Source of the DNA: Oceanirhabdus sp. W0125-5
Lineage (GTDB): Bacteria; Bacillota; Clostridia; Clostridiales; Clostridiaceae
Length of the DNA stretch: 64,000 nucleotides
Direction: 5' to 3'
Assembly: GCF_027938815.1 (NCBI RefSeq)
Contig: NZ_CP115913.1
Span: forward strand, 1,026,001 to 1,090,000
The translations under genes and the position numbers were made by a program. Below the pieces are notes generated by a model. The model had not been told where the DNA came from. It made no database searches and saw only the letters and a program-made list of their open reading frames with translations. Shown one piece after another: positions 3,237 through 59,771 of this stretch. How positions within the stretch are numbered: position 1 is the first letter of the stretch; each line of letters starts with the position of its first letter.

Positions 3237-4016
3237 CTAAATAGTAAGTTGGTCTTCTTCATTAAAGAAAGTCTTATATCCTAGTTGAACAAATAATATT
3301 ACTGTTAATGAAACACTGCCTAGAATACCGAGCATTATTGCTATTTGATATTCAATAGCTGTGATTGGGGAAATTCCTGATAATATTTGTCCAGTCATCA
3401 TACCAGGAAGAAATACTATTCCCATACCAATCATAGAGTTTATTGTTGGTAGAATTGCAGAATCAAAAGCATTGTCTACTATTTCTTTAGATGCAGATTT
3501 AGGGGTTGCCCCTAACATTAAGGCTGTTTCTACAAGGTTTTTCTGAGATTGCATTCCATCAACCAGCCTAGTAACACCTAAAGAGATTCCTGTCATGGAG
3601 TTCCCAATGAGCATACCTGCTATAGGAATGAAATATCTAGGGTCATACCATGGTGAGATATGTATCACAATAAAAACAAAGAAGAATAAACTTGTAAGAG
3701 TTCCTATAGTCATTGAAATAGCTATAATCTTCTTGAGTTTCTTAGAGAGAGTTAATTTTACTCTCTTGTATATATTATATATAGCGAATATCTCCATTAG
3801 GATTATTATTAGTATAGTATAAACTGGGCTAGGATTATCAAAAACATACACAAGAATATACCCTGTTAATATCAATTGTATAGTCATCCTGAAAGCAGAG
3901 ATAACTATCTGTTTTTCTCTATTGATACCTCTTATTTTAACAATAGCTAACAGTACAAGTATAAAAATATAAGCAGAAATCATTTGCCATATCTGTATAT
4001 CTATTACCTTATCCAT
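3237..4016 (-). CDS. fetB: FetB/YbbM-type ABC transporter permease
   Basis: A 259-residue membrane protein with about seven hydrophobic segments. It belongs to the UPF0014 family, of which E. coli FetB (iron export) is the characterised member. Supporting family signatures are the conserved central segment around PIAGMLIGNSMTG (residues about 130-145), LGATPKSA, and the FLPGMMTGQILSG segment before the last helices. Its start overlaps the end of the ATPase gene by 13 bp, so the two are translationally coupled. The role is inferred from the family: an efflux permease with the neighbouring ATPase, under the upstream PadR regulator. Substrate (iron or another metal) cannot be read from the sequence. 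Confidence 0.85.
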   Translation of the reverse strand: MDKVIDIQIWQMISAYIFILVLLAIVKIRGINREKQIVISAFRMTIQLILTGYILVYVFDNPSPVYTILIIILMEIFAIYNIYKRVKLTLSKKLKKIIAISMTIGTLTSLFFFVFIVIHISPWYDPRYFIPIAGMLIGNSMTGISLGVTRLVDGMQSQKNLVETALMLGATPKSASKEIVDNAFDSAILPTINSMIGMGIVFLPGMMTGQILSGISPITAIEYQIAIMLGILGSVSLTVILFVQLGYKTFFNEEDQLTI

Positions 4017-30938: not shown

Positions 30939-32102
30939 GCGAAGCGTGGAAGTGATGGTTTAAGAATAACTAAAACAATTAATGGAAAAACAACAAACCA
31001 AATTTGGGATGGACAAAGTATTGTTGCAGAAACAGATTCATCAAACAACATAATATCAGAATACATCAGAGGAATTAACCTAATTGCCGTAGAAAAAGAT
31101 AATAAGAAAATATTCTATTTATACAACGGGCATGGTGATGTAATACAGCTAACAGATGAAAATGGTAATGTTATAAAGAACTATAAGTACGATGCATTTG
31201 GAAACGAATTAAGTATTGATTCAAATGATACAAACCCATTTAGGTATGGTGGAGAGTATTTTGATAGTGAAACCGGATTATACTACCTGAGAGCAAGATA
31301 TTATGATCCAAAGATAGGAAGGTTTACAACAGAGGATAGTTATTGGGGAAAAGATGCAGATCCATTGAGCTTGAATTTGTATACTTATTGTCATAACAAC
31401 CCAATAATATATGTTGATCCGTCTGGAAACTTTCCATCGCTATCTGAACTTTTACACAGGTCAGATAAGTTTGTAAATGATAAGCTTGAATCATTGTCTT
31501 CTTTTGTTAGAGAGAAAACAGATTACAAGAATTTCTCCGTTGACACTGCTGATATAGGAGGATTTTTCTTGCAGATGGATGTAGATAATGATGGCGTTTA
31601 CCACGCAAGCTTTGATTGTTGGCAGCAATATTTTGGTTATAATGATTCGTACGACTTAGCATTTGATTTAGGCTCAAGTATGGATAAAGCTAAATTTCAG
31701 TTTGAATATAAAGGACAGGATTTAATTTTTTGGGCATGGAAAGGTGATTATATAAATTTAGGAGCAGGTGCTGAGTTAGGAATATACAGAAGACTAGAAA
31801 TAATGGGTTTTTTAACACCTCACTGGCTTGTGGATCAAAGCTTAGCTTTACCCATGTCATTGACACTAAAGGACAATAATGAGAATACTATAATTGATTA
31901 CAATCCTAAAGAGAATCAATGGTGGATAACAGGTTTTAATCCGAAATTTAAGGATGTTTAGGCAAGGAACTTGACAGCTATTTATACTGTTGACTTTTCT
32001 AACAATAAAGATATGTATAATAATTTTTATGATACATGGAACGATGATAAAAGATGGAAATTTAATAAAAAAACATATTCAGCGACATTCACTTTTAAAT
32101 AA
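30939..32102 (+). pseudogene. Orphan RHS cassette D: RHS core with second DUF4474 tip, amber stop
   Basis: Open frame without start codon that joins the header at the same point as cassette B and matches the main RHS gene up to DPSG. The tip is a close copy of the DUF4474 tip of cassette A (SFDCWQQYFGYND, FWAWKGDYINLGAG, WWITGFNP). A TAG at 31959-31961 interrupts it where cassette A reads DIQASN. The same frame then continues as ARNLTAIYTVDF... to the natural stop at 32100. So this copy has lost its last 46 codons, by one codon deletion plus a stop. Its DUF5104 partner gene is intact. Confidence 0.78.
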
Positions 32103-32116
32103 AAGAGGTGGTATAA

Positions 32117-32668
32117 GTGATTAAGAAAATTATATTTTTATTATTTCTTTCAAGTGCTTTTGTATTTTCATCATGTTCTTTTGGTAGTGGAAGAAGGCTT
32201 GTTAGTAGTGAAGATAAAAAAGCAGATGCGAGAATAGAACAAATACTTGAAGCAATTAAAGCTAAAGATGAAGGAGCAATCAAAGCATTATTTTCCAAAC
32301 AAGCATTGGTGGAAATCGATGATTTTGATTACGGAGTTGATTATTTATTTGATTTTTTTCAAGGTGATGTAGAATCTTGGAAAAGAGATAAGTGGTCTTC
32401 TGATGAATCAATAGAAAAAGGTAAAAAGTCTGTAATGCTTAGGTATTGGTATACAGTAAGTACAAATAAGGAAAAATACATGTTTTTCGTAATTGATTTT
32501 ACCGAAGACACCATAAATTCTAACAATGCTGGATTATATACATTACGTGTAATTAAAGCAGAAGATAGAGATACACAATTTACCTACTGGCAAGATATGA
32601 ACATAGCTGGAATTTATAAACCTAAGGATAACGAAAAAACTGGCACAACACCTGCAATAAACCCTTAA
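32117..32668 (+). CDS. DUF5104 lipoprotein, second copy
   Basis: A 183-residue lipoprotein with GTG start after AGAGGTGG; lipobox FSSC at Cys20. It is a diverged homologue of the lipoprotein at 23934 (DKKADARIEQILEAIKAKD, YLFDFFQGDVESW, NNAGLYTLRVIKAEDRD) with a different C-terminus (IAGIYKPKDNEKTG). It accompanies the second DUF4474 tip. The lipoproteins differ more than the tips do, which could reflect specificity or relaxed selection. Confidence 0.75.
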   Translation: MIKKIIFLLFLSSAFVFSSCSFGSGRRLVSSEDKKADARIEQILEAIKAKDEGAIKALFSKQALVEIDDFDYGVDYLFDFFQGDVESWKRDKWSSDESIEKGKKSVMLRYWYTVSTNKEKYMFFVIDFTEDTINSNNAGLYTLRVIKAEDRDTQFTYWQDMNIAGIYKPKDNEKTGTTPAINP

Positions 32669-32760
32669 TTTTAGAATGAATTGACTTACAGTGATTTCCT
32701 AGTATCTTGGAGGAGAAAACAAGATAATCAAGCATAAGCAATTAAGGAAAGATAAGTAAT

Positions 32761-32801
32761 GATAAAATTACCACTATAAGAAATAATGGTGGTAATTTAT
32801 C
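32761..32801 (+). terminator. Hairpin after cassette D
   Basis: Stem of 13 pairs with one bulged A (gataaaattaccac with gtggtaatttatc). The tail has few T, so termination is possible but weak. No gene is visible from 32669 to about 32957. Confidence 0.5.
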
Positions 32802-32956
32802 ATAAATAACAATGAAAAAAGCATATGCCAACCAAGAATAACATCAAATCTGGGATATTTTATGTTATAAAGGGAAAGGTTTAATGAAATAAAGTAATAT
32901 GTTAGGACCCTAGGGGGTTGTGAACAAAGTGATAGAGCAATAAAAAATATAAACCG

Positions 32957-33347
32957 TATAAATGGTTTCAAAAGAAAACAAAAGATGGAAAGTTACCTTG
33001 GTTTTTTAAGTTAGCTGGATTTAATAGGGATGAAAATGGAGTTTATCATGCTAGACAGAATTTATCATTGCAGAGTTTTAAATATTCAGGGTACAACGAT
33101 TTTTATGATTATGTGTTTGATTTAGCCTGTGATATGGATAAAGCTGATACAAACCCATTCAGATATGGTGGAGAGTATTTTGACAAAGAAGGAAGTTAGT
33201 AAAGGACTTTCTGTTTTGGGATATTTATTAACTGCCAAGAGTGTTATTGATGATATAGGCTATAGTGAATATGAATTAGAATATGTGATTGATTATGTAT
33301 TTGGACATTCACTAAGTGCAGAATCTAAAGAGGGGGGTAATAATTAA
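32957..33347 (+). pseudogene. Decayed cassette: DUF4474-RHS chimera and toxin tail
   Basis: A frame from about 32957 to the stop at 33197 reads as part of a DUF4474 domain (ENGVYHARQN, YSGYNDFYDYVFDLACDMDKA). It switches at about 33140-33146 into RHS core (DTNPFRYGGEYFDKE), the reverse of normal order, and then stops. In another frame KKEVSKGLSVLGYLLTAKSVIDDIGYSEYE...SKEGGNN runs to 33347 and looks like the end of a different toxin. This is the scar of recombination between cassettes. Confidence 0.65.
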
Positions 33348-33366
33348 ATATTATTATGCTAGAAAA

Positions 33367-33522
33367 ATGACACTTGAATTAATTCAAAGTGGAGATATAA
33401 ATTATACTTTTGAAAGAAAATGGTATGAACTATATAGTCATATGAATAGCTATGGTATTTCTAAGGATGGGATTGAAAAGTGTGAACAAATTAAGAAGGA
33501 ATTAGAAAATTTATTAGATTAA
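33367..33522 (+). CDS. Small acidic protein, possible immunity gene
   Basis: A frame of 51 residues from an ATG (MTLELIQSGDINYTFERKWYE...KKELENLLD). A good ribosome site (GAGGGGGG, near 33330) lies too far upstream for this ATG but at the right distance for an ATT or TTA-like codon near 33348, so the true start may be an unusual codon a few residues earlier. Unrecognised; it follows a toxin remnant and could be its immunity gene. Confidence 0.4.
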   Translation: MTLELIQSGDINYTFERKWYELYSHMNSYGISKDGIEKCEQIKKELENLLD

Positions 33523-33598
33523 TAAAATAAAATAAAATAAAATTAGTTTGAATATGAATTTACTTTCTCTTCGCTGATATAAAGGAGTGGATTTTAAA

Positions 33599-33748
33599 TT
33601 GGTGTTGTTGATTTTTATTGCTCTTCTGATACTTAATACAGGCGGATGGTTTAGATTATCAATGTCTGGATTTACAACTAGACAAATAATAATATTTTTA
33701 CTTATTACAAATATTATACTAGTGGTTTTAATTGTATTAAAAATATAA
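33599..33748 (+). CDS. Small two-helix membrane protein (49 residues)
   Basis: TTG start with AAAGGAGTGG 11 nt upstream. The product has two hydrophobic helices (VLLIFIALLIL and IIIFLLITNIILVVLIVLKI) around GGWFRLSMSGFTTRQ. Unknown function; in this array it could be a small immunity protein or the remains of one. Confidence 0.5.
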   Translation: MVLLIFIALLILNTGGWFRLSMSGFTTRQIIIFLLITNIILVVLIVLKI

Positions 33749-33817
33749 TATTTTTAGACTAGAGTAACAGTAAACTATCCAATAGAATAAAATAATAAAA
33801 TTGAGTTAAAGTTTAAT

Positions 33818-33856
33818 ACCAATCCGGGAAGTAAAATCCTTGGGTTGGTTTGTTTT
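33818..33856 (+). terminator. Terminator between decayed cassette and HINT cassette
   Basis: Stem accaatcc with gggttggt (one T-G pair), 17-nt loop with some inner pairing, tail tgtttt. No gene is visible from 33749 to 33989. Confidence 0.5.
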
Positions 33857-33989
33857 AAGGGTTAAAGTTTATAAGCGCAGATTCATAGGGGGAGTAGTTA
33901 GTAGCAAGTTCAATCGTGCCTTTTTCACTAAAAACCTCGGTGGATGTTAGCAAGGATATGAATTTCAATCATTTCCTAGGATTTCAGGG

Positions 33990-34646
33990 ATGATTATTTT
34001 TACATTTATTCAAAAATGGGTTAATATTTGTTTCACAGAAGAGACAGAGATTCTAACTGAAGAAGGAACAAAACAAATAAAAGATATAAAAGTAGGAGAT
34101 AAAGTATTCTCAAAGAATGAATTCACAGGAGAAAAAGCCTACAAAGAAGTAGTAAGACTCTTTAGAAACAAAGTATCTGAACTTGTAGTAATAAAAATAA
34201 ACGGAAAAACAATAAGGACAACAAGTGAGCATCCATTCTGGACAAAGAATAGAGGTTGGGTAGGTGCAAAAGAGTTAACAGAAGAAGATATATTAGAAGA
34301 TGCAGAAGAAAATGAAATATATCTTGAAAGTATAGAAATAAAACAATTTGATGAACCAATAAATGTTTATAATTTTGAGGTTAAGGACTTCCATACTTAT
34401 TATGTAAGTGAAGAGTTTGTGTTGGTGCATAATAAGTGTAAGGGTATAAAAAATCTTGCTGAAAATTGTTCTATTGACTCAAAGGTTCTAAAAGAATTAA
34501 AAAGAATGGGGCAAAAAGTAGGTGGCTTTTTTATAAATTTCATACCATATAAAGGAACTTATGATGGACTTGATAAGCTACTTACTAGTGAACCATGGGT
34601 TATTATTATAGATAAGGAGGATGTAGATGAGTATTACAAAAAATAA
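33990..34646 (+). pseudogene. Headless HINT-linked toxin module
   Basis: A frame of 218 residues containing a full HINT (Hedgehog/intein-type) pretoxin domain: Cys14 in NICFTEETEILTEEG, the block B TTSEHPFW with H81, VYNFEVKDFHTYYV, and the terminal VLVHN (H147, N148). In such toxins the HINT domain releases the C-terminal tip by self-cleavage after Asn. The tip here is only 70 residues (KCKGIKN...DVDEYYKK) and is unrecognised. No RHS core or ribosome site precedes the Met, so it is probably a detached module. The DNA of the HINT part is A-rich like the RHS core. Its end overlaps the next gene by 20 bp. Confidence 0.7.
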
Positions 34647-35389: not shown

Positions 35390-35603
35390 TGGAAAATTTT
35401 CCTCAAGCAGAAATAAGCATAGTAAGAACCTGATATTTTATATTCCATAATTCATGAAATATTTATTATGTTTCATTACTTTATATAAATAATTTGTTAC
35501 TACGAAACAACTAACATTGTATATTTACATAAAAATACTATAAAGTAAAAATGTGATATAATAATAAAGTTAAAACAAATTATATATGAAAGTGAGGAAA
35601 ACA

Positions 35604-36152
35604 ATGAAGAAAAAATATTTTTTCGGATTTTTAATTTTAATTATTTTACTTGGCGCTATTTTTGTTATTTCTCCTGATAAAAAGAGTCAAGAAGTATTTT
35701 TTTCAGAAGTAAAAACATTTCCAGAATTTAAGTGTAAAGATATGAACAATAATGAGATAACAGATGAAATTATTAAGGATTACAAGCTTACATTAATCAA
35801 AATTTGGACTACCACTTGAAAACCTTGTGTTGAAGAATTGGAGATTCTTGAATCAAGTTATAAAGAATTAAATGAAAAAGGAATTAATCTAATAGGAATC
35901 GTTACAAATGCTTCAGAAAAAGGTAATAATGGCAACCTAAACAAGATTTTAAGCGGCAATAAAGTAACCTTTACAAATATTATCCCAAGTAAGGAGCTAA
36001 AAGAAGAATTTACTGATTATATTCATTTGTTTCCAACTACTGTGTTTGTAGATAACAATGGAAATATTGTTGATGTAAAGATTGGTGCTAGTACTGAAAA
36101 AGAATACTTTTTAGAAAAGGTTTACAAGGTGTTTAATAATATGTCTTTATAA
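35604..36152 (+). CDS. TlpA/thioredoxin-like membrane protein with in-frame UGA, probable selenoprotein
   Basis: Read through the TGA at 35817-35819, this is one 182-residue frame. An N-terminal membrane anchor (residues 4-25, YFFGFLILIILLGAIFVI) is followed by a TlpA/AhpC-TSA-type thioredoxin fold: FPEFKCKDMNNNEIT, LIKIWTTT-U72-KPC75-VEELEIL, INLIGIVTNAS, and the cis-Pro strand FPTTVFVDNNGNIV. The UGA falls exactly at the first Cys of the W-x-x-x-C-x-P-C redox motif, which is where selenocysteine replaces Cys in known UxxC redox selenoproteins. A SECIS-like hairpin follows. The ATG at 35604 has GTGAGGA upstream. The alternative is a pseudogene with TGT or TGC mutated to TGA, but both halves are otherwise well kept. 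Extracytoplasmic thiol-disulfide exchange or peroxide reduction is inferred. Confidence 0.75.
35820..35860 (+). promoter_or_regulatory. Bacterial SECIS-like hairpin after the UGA
   Basis: A 6-bp stem aagaat/attctt with a 5-nt loop tggag starts 13 nt after the UGA. After a G-G mismatch it extends with three more pairs. The loop begins 20 nt after the UGA and has G at its second position, both within the usual bacterial SECIS rules. The stem is AU-rich, so the support is moderate. Confidence 0.5.
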
Positions 36153-36247
36153 TTAGTTTGCAGACGGTATAATATAGGTATACATAATAGTTAGCGAAGT
36201 TAGTAAAGTAAAATAGAACAATATGTTAGTGAATAGGAGTGTATACT

Positions 36248-37423
36248 ATGACAGAAAAACTTTATTATAAAGATTCTTACATAAAGGAATGTGAAGTGGA
36301 AATAGTTCAGGTGTTAAAGGAAGAAAACAAGGTATTAGTAGTTTTAAATAAAACTCCATTTTATCCAGAAGGGGGTGGGCAACCTTCTGATACTGGTTAT
36401 ATAAATGGCGTTAGAGTTAAGTATGTTTTTGAAAAAGAAAATATAATTTATCATGAAGTTGATGGTGAACTGGAATGTGGAAAGGCATTATGTACCGTTG
36501 ATTTTGAAAGAAGATTTGATTTCATGCAGCAGCACTCTGGGGAACATATTGTGTCAGGGATTATATATAAATTATTTAAAGGAAATAATAAAGGATTCCA
36601 TTTAGGTGAAGATTATATAACCATGGATATTGATATTTATCCTTTTACAGATGATATGATAGATTCTTTAGAAGAAGAAGTGAATAATGCAATCTATAAA
36701 AATGTACCTTTTAAAACTTATATTGTAGATAATGAAGGTTTAGAAAAAGTTAATGCAAGAAAGAAGTTTAAAGTAGATGGAGATATAAGAATTGTTGAAG
36801 TTGATAATATAGATTGTTGTCCTTGTTGTGGAACTCATCTATCAAGAACAGGAGAAATAGGTATAGTAAAAATACTTAAAGTAGAAAAATATAAAGGTAT
36901 GAGCAGATTATATTTAAAGTGCGGTAATAGAGCATATAAAGATTATAAACAAAAGCACAATGTAATAAGCGAATTAAACAAAAACTTTTCAACTGATGAA
37001 TATAATTTATTAAAATCTATAGATAATCAGCAACAACTATTTAATAATTTGAAAAAGCAGCTAAGTGAGCTAAAAAATCAATTAGCCATAGAAGAAGCAT
37101 CAAAGTTAATAAAGTCTACTGATAATAACTTAATATGTAAAAGATATGAAAATAAATCATTTGAAGAAATTAGAGATATAGGAGAAATTTTAAGTGAAAA
37201 GAACTACATACTTGTTCTAGCCTCAGAAATAGATAAAAAATTATTGTTTATTAACAATAGTGACATGCAGATAAGCTGTGGTAAAGTTTTTAAAGAGCAT
37301 ATCAAAAAATTTAATGGTAAAGGTGGCGGAAGAGATAGTATGGCTCAAGGAGCCTTTGATACTTTAAATGACTTAAAAGAATTTTACTCCTTTTTATGTG
37401 AAATGGTAAAAGGTGGTATGTAA
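36248..37423 (+). CDS. AlaX-type alanyl-tRNA editing protein (long form with DHHA1)
   Basis: A 391-residue free-standing editing protein that hydrolyses mischarged Ser- or Gly-tRNA(Ala). It has an N-terminal beta-barrel (TPFYPEGGGQPSDTG), the zinc-binding editing core with QQHSGEHIVSG (HxxxH) and CCPCCGTHLSRTGEIG (Cys and His ligands), a coiled-coil linker and a C-terminal DHHA1 domain (FNGKGGGRDSMAQGAF). The ATG at 36248 has AGGAG 8 nt upstream. The sequence is in good order. It is a single gene after the probable selenoprotein; a promoter-like tataat lies near 36167. Confidence 0.88.
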   Translation: MTEKLYYKDSYIKECEVEIVQVLKEENKVLVVLNKTPFYPEGGGQPSDTGYINGVRVKYVFEKENIIYHEVDGELECGKALCTVDFERRFDFMQQHSGEHIVSGIIYKLFKGNNKGFHLGEDYITMDIDIYPFTDDMIDSLEEEVNNAIYKNVPFKTYIVDNEGLEKVNARKKFKVDGDIRIVEVDNIDCCPCCGTHLSRTGEIGIVKILKVEKYKGMSRLYLKCGNRAYKDYKQKHNVISELNKNFSTDEYNLLKSIDNQQQLFNNLKKQLSELKNQLAIEEASKLIKSTDNNLICKRYENKSFEEIRDIGEILSEKNYILVLASEIDKKLLFINNSDMQISCGKVFKEHIKKFNGKGGGRDSMAQGAFDTLNDLKEFYSFLCEMVKGGM

Positions 37424-59470: not shown

Positions 59471-59771
59471 TAATCAGAGTAATGTACTCGGAATAAAGTG
59501 GTAAAGCGTCGAAAAAGGAAAGTAGTATAAAGGGAATATACAGAGAGAGGTTTCAGAGCTGAGAGATACCTTATAGGAAATTTATATGAAGTGCCCTTTG
59601 GAGTGTGTACCGAAAAGCTTTTGCTTAGTAGGCTGCATGGGGATTCGCCCCTTATAGCGATAGAGCATAATAGTGCTTGAAAAGTGGATACTTTGTATCA
59701 ATTAGAGTGGAACCGCGGATAATACTTCGTCTCTTAATGCAGAAATGTGTATATGAGAACGAGGTTTTTTT
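59471..59771 (+). promoter_or_regulatory. T-box leader, cysteine type
   Basis: Starts just after the promoter. The T-box sequence AGAGTGGAACCGCGG is at 59704-59718. The terminator at 59725-59771 (cttcgt/acgagg and ctc/gag with one bulge, then T7) competes with it. A TGC at 59592-59594, in a position fitting the specifier loop, reads as Cys, in line with cysK and cysE downstream. Uncharged tRNA(Cys) would prevent termination. After the leader, 59787-59840 holds a twofold repeat of agaag-aggagta, meaning unknown. Confidence 0.88.

Follow-up and report, generated by a model that had tools for sequence, protein, structure and literature searches.

Is a redoxin gene that carries a TGA codon in place of its catalytic cysteine a broken gene, or does it encode a selenoprotein that ordinary gene calling cuts in two? 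The question is raised by a locus of Oceanirhabdus sp. W0125-5 (genome of one contig, 5.78 Mb), located in a stretch of 64,000 nucleotides (positions 1,026,001-1,090,000), which we refer to as the window. Our reading, to which we assign a probability of roughly 0.85, is that the gene is one frame, that its UGA is decoded as selenocysteine (Sec) by the cell's own SelA, SelB, SelC and SelD, and that the product is a predicted membrane-anchored redoxin with the active site U-K-P-C. We favor this reading because the UGA stands at the column of the catalytic Cys, the machinery genes are in the genome, a GGA hairpin of the grdB type follows the UGA, and a gene remnant in a sister genome (G191) has the TGA too. 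The initial annotation had called the gene a probable selenoprotein, a proposal supported by the sel genes, the homologue column and the SECIS-like hairpin.

A single reading frame interrupted at the active-site codon

The frame at 35604-36152 (plus strand) comprises 182 residues. It is broken once, by the TGA at 35817-35819 (residue 72), and ends at the TAA 36150-36152. The TGA falls exactly on the first Cys of the TlpA/ResA-type WxxxCxxC motif, giving U-K-P-C. The features of the locus are listed in Table 1.

Table 1. Features of the redoxin locus and of the loci of its Cys paralogues
Feature	Position	Strand	Basis
Probable ribosome binding site GTGAGG	35592..35597	+	By eye; 6 nt 5' of ATG 35604
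Predicted Sec-containing TlpA/ResA-type redoxin gene, 182 residues and TAA	35604..36152	+	Translation, Pfam, NCBIfam, structure-sequence match, codon usage
Hydrophobic N-terminal segment without a lipobox Cys, probably a membrane anchor or an uncleaved signal	35604..35675	+	Translation read by eye
In-frame TGA predicted to encode selenocysteine (residue 72, the U of U-K-P-C)	35817..35819	+	Translation, homologue column
Predicted SECIS hairpin, GGA triloop at 35840-35842	35824..35857	+	Fold prediction
Pro144 codon (FPTTVFVD)	36033..36035	+	Pro in 41/41 aligned homologues
NapH-like genes near the Cys paralogues of the same genome	L042:6760-7581, L043:5325-6158		

The standard list of open reading frames splits the gene into 35586-35819 and 35838-36152, and the 104-aa downstream piece of this genome stands as an entry of its own in the protein collection that was searched. 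The read-through product matched the Pfam families AhpC-TSA (41.9 bits, cut-off 26) and Redoxin (41 bits, cut-off 26.6), both matches spanning the TGA. When Sec is counted as Cys, the protein has all the elements by which we classed a protein as redoxin-type: a domain score over the cut-off, U72, C75 and P144. We take Pro144 to be the cis-Pro position of the thioredoxin fold. Codon usage compared with shuffled sequences gave z values of 3.6 upstream and 4.5 downstream of the TGA, each the highest of the six frames, which supports coding on both sides. The AlphaFold model of the protein was poor (mean pLDDT 52, from a two-sequence alignment) and unusable for a fold search. The initial annotation had joined the two separately called frames across the TGA, placed the TGA at the first Cys of a W-x-x-x-C-x-P-C motif, held that both sides keep the fold including the cis-Pro strand, and predicted that a gene caller would miss the gene; the observation was confirmed.

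Selenocysteine machinery and other TGA-containing genes

The genome contains a tRNA-Sec gene (63.8 bits, over the Rfam cut-off), typed by ARAGORN as tRNA-SeC with the anticodon TCA. Since 5 of 14 control genomes also scored over the cut-off in the Rfam search, this point is carried by the ARAGORN typing together with the remaining sel genes. The 18-kb stretch around the tRNA-Sec gene harbors selB, selA and part of selD, and the NCBIfam scores of SelA (636 bits), SelB (390 bits) and the partial SelD (135.9 bits) were each over the cut-off. A search for selA, selB, selC and selD had been proposed as a check of the selenoprotein reading, and all four are present.

Further genes of this genome have an internal in-frame TGA: two grdB genes (PF07355 over the cut-off), a gene that we take to be grdA-like from its motif, and selD itself (SG-TGA-AAKIG). 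From the known biology of these families we assume that the TGA codons of both grdB genes, the grdA-like gene and selD are decoded as Sec.

The hairpin downstream of the UGA

The bacterial SECIS element is described in PMC1088965 as a hairpin just downstream of the UGA, with a G in a small apical loop. The window hairpin fits this general wording, as many chance sites do, and has a GGA triloop as in the native grdB genes. Counted from the UGA, its inner stem begins at +14 and the triloop (+21 to +23) sits on 7 bp, in agreement with the earlier claim of a hairpin with G in its loop starting 13 nt after the UGA. In each of the two grdB genes a GGA triloop caps 7 bp at +19, the grdA-like gene has a UGGA loop on 6 bp, and selD has GGA at +18 without a continuous stem.

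How often such a hairpin arises by chance was estimated from 5414 other TGA triplets, taken from both strands of seven loci of the same genome (about 100 of them counted twice, in overlapping loci). A GGA triloop on at least 7 pairs at +18 to +25 followed 2 of these, and one on at least 5 pairs followed 10, counts that serve as a guide only because the GGA criterion was drawn from the native sites after inspecting them. A looser rule (a loop of 3-14 nt with an early G, at least 7 pairs) was satisfied after 480 of the 5414 triplets; it does not set the window hairpin apart and is useless here. Judged by energy alone the hairpin is mildly unusual (z -1.76; 8 of 200 shuffles equally good), and a fold of equal or better energy followed 59 of 3000 other TGA triplets. 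Among synonymous recodings of the stretch, 147 of 20000 reached 7 GGA pairs and 17 of 3000 reached the energy; the protein sequence itself therefore somewhat favors the stem. None of 3000 recodings combined a 6-bp GGA hairpin with the energy. In the two Cys paralogues of the same genome the predicted folding at the corresponding position is weak (L042, -5.4 kcal/mol; L043, -3.4 kcal/mol).

Four TGA triplets of the window have at least 60 open codons on both sides, and a GGA hairpin follows only the one at 35817. The in-frame TGA candidates at 3544 (plus strand), 56171 and 46700 (both minus strand) were rejected: they have no GGA hairpin, and their low-complexity translations look like antisense frames.

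Homologues and phylogeny

Homologues are widespread. In genome sets that overlap, matches at E <= 0.001 were found in at least 126 of 206 genomes of the family and at least 130 of 225 of the order, and matches at E <= 1e-8 in 81 of 391 genomes of the class. Aligning homologues had been suggested as a way to see Cys or Sec at the active-site column; among the best matches (47 loci, read by script) the column holds Cys in 41 and TGA in 5, and the motif is absent from 1.

With Sec counted as Cys, the window protein keeps all 8 columns that are invariant in the 41 aligned homologues. It keeps 14 of the 21 well-conserved columns, the fewest of the set (the others keep 15 to 21). Its mean identity to the rest is 0.352, three of the 41 rows being lower, and its tip branch is 1.14 long vs a median of 0.32, with a single row longer (1.15). 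The long branch and the low number of conserved columns make relaxed or shifted constraint possible. No intact orthologue was found among the matches listed for the 206 family genomes or in the searched protein collection, and the 110-aa downstream half, used as a query for split orthologues, retrieved only its own fragment. A scan of genome contigs returned one match (L010), which was rejected because it covers just the signal peptide (26 residues) in an unrelated longer frame.

In a tree of 42 sequences the window protein lies outside the clade of another family of the class (f23), which also has TGA forms; its own position was not resolved. Explaining the Sec label takes three changes on this tree and on most of 200 bootstrap trees; two of the three are forced by well-supported branches. 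One gain of Sec with later losses is possible, because a Cys row inside f23 may account for one of the changes.

TGA forms in another family of the class

Five f23 genomes have a redoxin gene with TGA at the same column (L064-L068 in G473, G416, G244, G572 and G504); the active site reads UPSC or UGSC, and a sixth f23 genome (L069) has Cys. ARAGORN typed a tRNA-Sec in four of the five genomes with TGA, as well as in that of the Cys form L069. In G504, which is 86% complete, the Rfam match to tRNA-Sec (49.4 bits) was rejected, being a tRNA-Ser according to ARAGORN.

These genes have a conserved stretch able to form a 7-bp stem with a GUU loop. Across the five TGA forms the third position is invariant in 6 of the 7 codons of the hairpin stretch vs 9 of 132 codons elsewhere (P 4e-6), for a stretch picked after viewing the alignment; restricted to codons with an invariant residue, the same comparison gave 4 of 5 vs 4 of 26 (P 0.01). 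The GUU-loop hairpin is the minimum-energy fold in two of the five (L066 and L067), and the other three fold otherwise. The Cys relative L069 also folds into the GUU hairpin (-7.7 kcal/mol vs -7.7 to -12.1 kcal/mol for the TGA forms). Covariation is weak: one pair has changed on both sides, a result reached by 85 of 500 shuffles.

The sister genome and alternative explanations

Both genomes available for the genus (2/2) were searched. In the other one, G191, a 90-bp remnant of the gene survives (L041:7308-7398) in the corresponding position ahead of alaX. This remnant has TGA at the same codon, followed by two stops; beyond these 90 bp the rest of the redoxin gene was not recognizable at that place. 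Since the TGA is at the same codon in both species, it predates their split. G191 has a tRNA-Sec (typed, TCA) and a grdB gene with TGA. A close relative with Cys here and other inactivating changes had been named at the outset as evidence that would speak against a selenoprotein; the copy in G191 is broken, yet it keeps the TGA. The shared TGA also largely refutes the least probable of the alternatives, namely that a Cys codon was misread in sequencing or has very recently mutated to a stop. TGA is just one base from TGT and TGC, but under this explanation, which we consider highly improbable, the hairpin would have to be a coincidence.

The most serious competitor is a decaying pseudogene, in which a Cys codon was mutated to a stop before the two species separated, with both copies drifting from then on, so that the window copy merely looks intact. 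The broken sister copy speaks for it, and so do the long branch of the window protein and its 14 of 21 conserved columns. We compared the window gene, which apart from the TGA has acquired no stop and no frameshift in 182 codons, with a neutral simulation (substitutions only, the present sequence as start). Synonymous divergence between the two genomes is 0.42 for alaX, 0.54 for an AGCS transporter, 0.17 for grdB1 and 0.57 for grdB2. At t = 0.2 substitutions per site, about half the alaX divergence, 5.3 new stops are expected, and none appeared in 0.4% of 2000 runs; at the slow clock of grdB1 (t about 0.1) about 2.9 stops are expected, and their absence is a 5% event. The outcome of the decay test depends on the clock chosen. 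The shared 90-bp block has 12 differences vs about 29 predicted by neutrality at 0.32 per site (P 4e-5; P 0.005 at 0.25), a deficit that recent exchange between the lineages could also produce. Seven of the 9 changed codons in the block encode another residue or have turned into stops, and G191 no longer has the GGA loop, a pattern as would be expected if the gene had long been kept and then lost in G191. The coding signal on both sides of the TGA and a hairpin with the native loop likewise argue against decay. On balance we regard a pseudogene as unlikely.

The locus might instead make two products, a truncated anchor peptide that ends at the UGA and a second protein from the downstream piece, whose translation would begin at TTG 35838 or by reinitiation. 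Both pieces are in the list of open reading frames, and the protein collection contains the downstream one; neither, however, would hold a complete thioredoxin fold with its active site, and this explanation gives no role to the hairpin or to the TGA at the same column in other genomes. We judge it very improbable, if slightly less so than an error or a recent mutation.

Relation to known selenoproteins

Selenoproteins of related kinds have been described. Prx-like thiol:disulfide oxidoreductases assigned to pfam00578 have UxxC or UxxU motifs (PMC9312934, PMC1088965, PMC1794560), and one 'distant' Prx-like member is named in Syntrophomonas wolfei, listed under Clostridia (PMC1794560). By family and motif the predicted protein is similar, being AhpC-TSA (over the cut-off) with UxxC at a thioredoxin-like site; it differs from them in being of the TlpA/ResA type, in its predicted anchor and in having been found intact in one species. 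A thiol-disulfide isomerase-like selenoprotein (cd02966/pfam13905, UxxC) and a UGC-containing TlpA family protein (cd02966) are also on record (PMC13188914, PMC9312934). The cd02966 selenoproteins share with the window protein the TlpA-like superfamily and Sec at the first catalytic position, whereas its motif is UKPC (UxxC) and not the UGC of the TlpA family protein. No match of the window protein to NCBIfam NF041054, the ResA-like WAxxUGC kind, was found at E 0.001.

The closest solved relatives by sequence are StoA (3erw, 1.1e-8) and ResA (4nmu, 1.1e-7), which have Cys where the window protein has its predicted Sec. ResA and StoA are extracytoplasmic thiol-disulfide oxidoreductases with the same layout of anchor and redoxin. 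Against the NCBIfam models of the two families the window protein scores far under the cut-off (ResA, NF002854, 65.2 of 170 bits; StoA, NF041202, 47 of 210 bits). In the tree presented here it stands apart from the other Sec forms that we found. UxxC selenoproteins of the pfam00578 and cd02966 groups are thus already known from the sources cited, and the window gene adds a likely further one; what is fresher is that two lineages of the redoxin/polyferredoxin group have TGA at this column.

Genomic neighborhood and a proposed function

A gene for a NapH-like membrane 4Fe-4S protein was found at 35 of the 47 homologue loci, including those of the Cys paralogues L042 and L043 and all six f23 loci. 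The NapH-like protein scores 71.5 of 213 bits for the family model, below the member cut-off. Because the flanks fetched for the partner search were mostly about 1.5 kb, the remaining 12 loci may have a polyferredoxin gene further off. The whole 64-kb window contains no polyferredoxin gene.

We propose that SelB with tRNA-Sec would bind the hairpin and insert Sec, and that the redoxin would be exported and anchored by its N-terminal hydrophobic segment. Outside the membrane the selenolate may attack disulfides (or peroxides), and Cys75 would then resolve the selenenylsulfide. The redoxin might be re-reduced in trans, perhaps by one of the NapH-like 4Fe-4S proteins encoded beside the Cys paralogues L042 and L043; we infer that NapH-like proteins pass electrons to the redoxin.

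A broader scenario, which we offer tentatively and at somewhat short of even odds, is one of repeated conversion within Clostridia: an exported redoxin whose usual partner is a NapH-like membrane polyferredoxin would have become a selenoenzyme more than once, always through the same residue, with at least one event in the genus of the window and a separate one in f23, each with a hairpin of its own. The window gene would then be a specialized form without a partner, acting outside the membrane and discarded by the sister species. With this locus the list of likely selenoproteins grows by one that ordinary gene callers truncate. The locus also points to an exchange of Cys and Sec at a single catalytic position in at least two lineages of the class, one lineage (G191) being caught after the loss of the gene. 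Several TGA-reading genes of this genome have the GGA-loop hairpin in common, and it could serve in a search for others. If Sec is confirmed, why a redoxin outside the membrane needs selenium becomes a testable question.

Other features were noted in the window. Directly downstream of the redoxin gene, at 36239-37423, is a gene for a stand-alone protein of the alanyl-tRNA editing type (AlaX-like; tRNA_SAD, DHHA1), which is conserved in G191. A protein with a pretoxin HINT domain (33990-34646) lies within the region 31365-34646, a fragment of which, judged by its motif, resembles the end of an Rhs-type core; these features suggest that the region is a polymorphic toxin locus. A T-box leader is located at 59500-59737 (Rfam RF00230, 106.6 bits).
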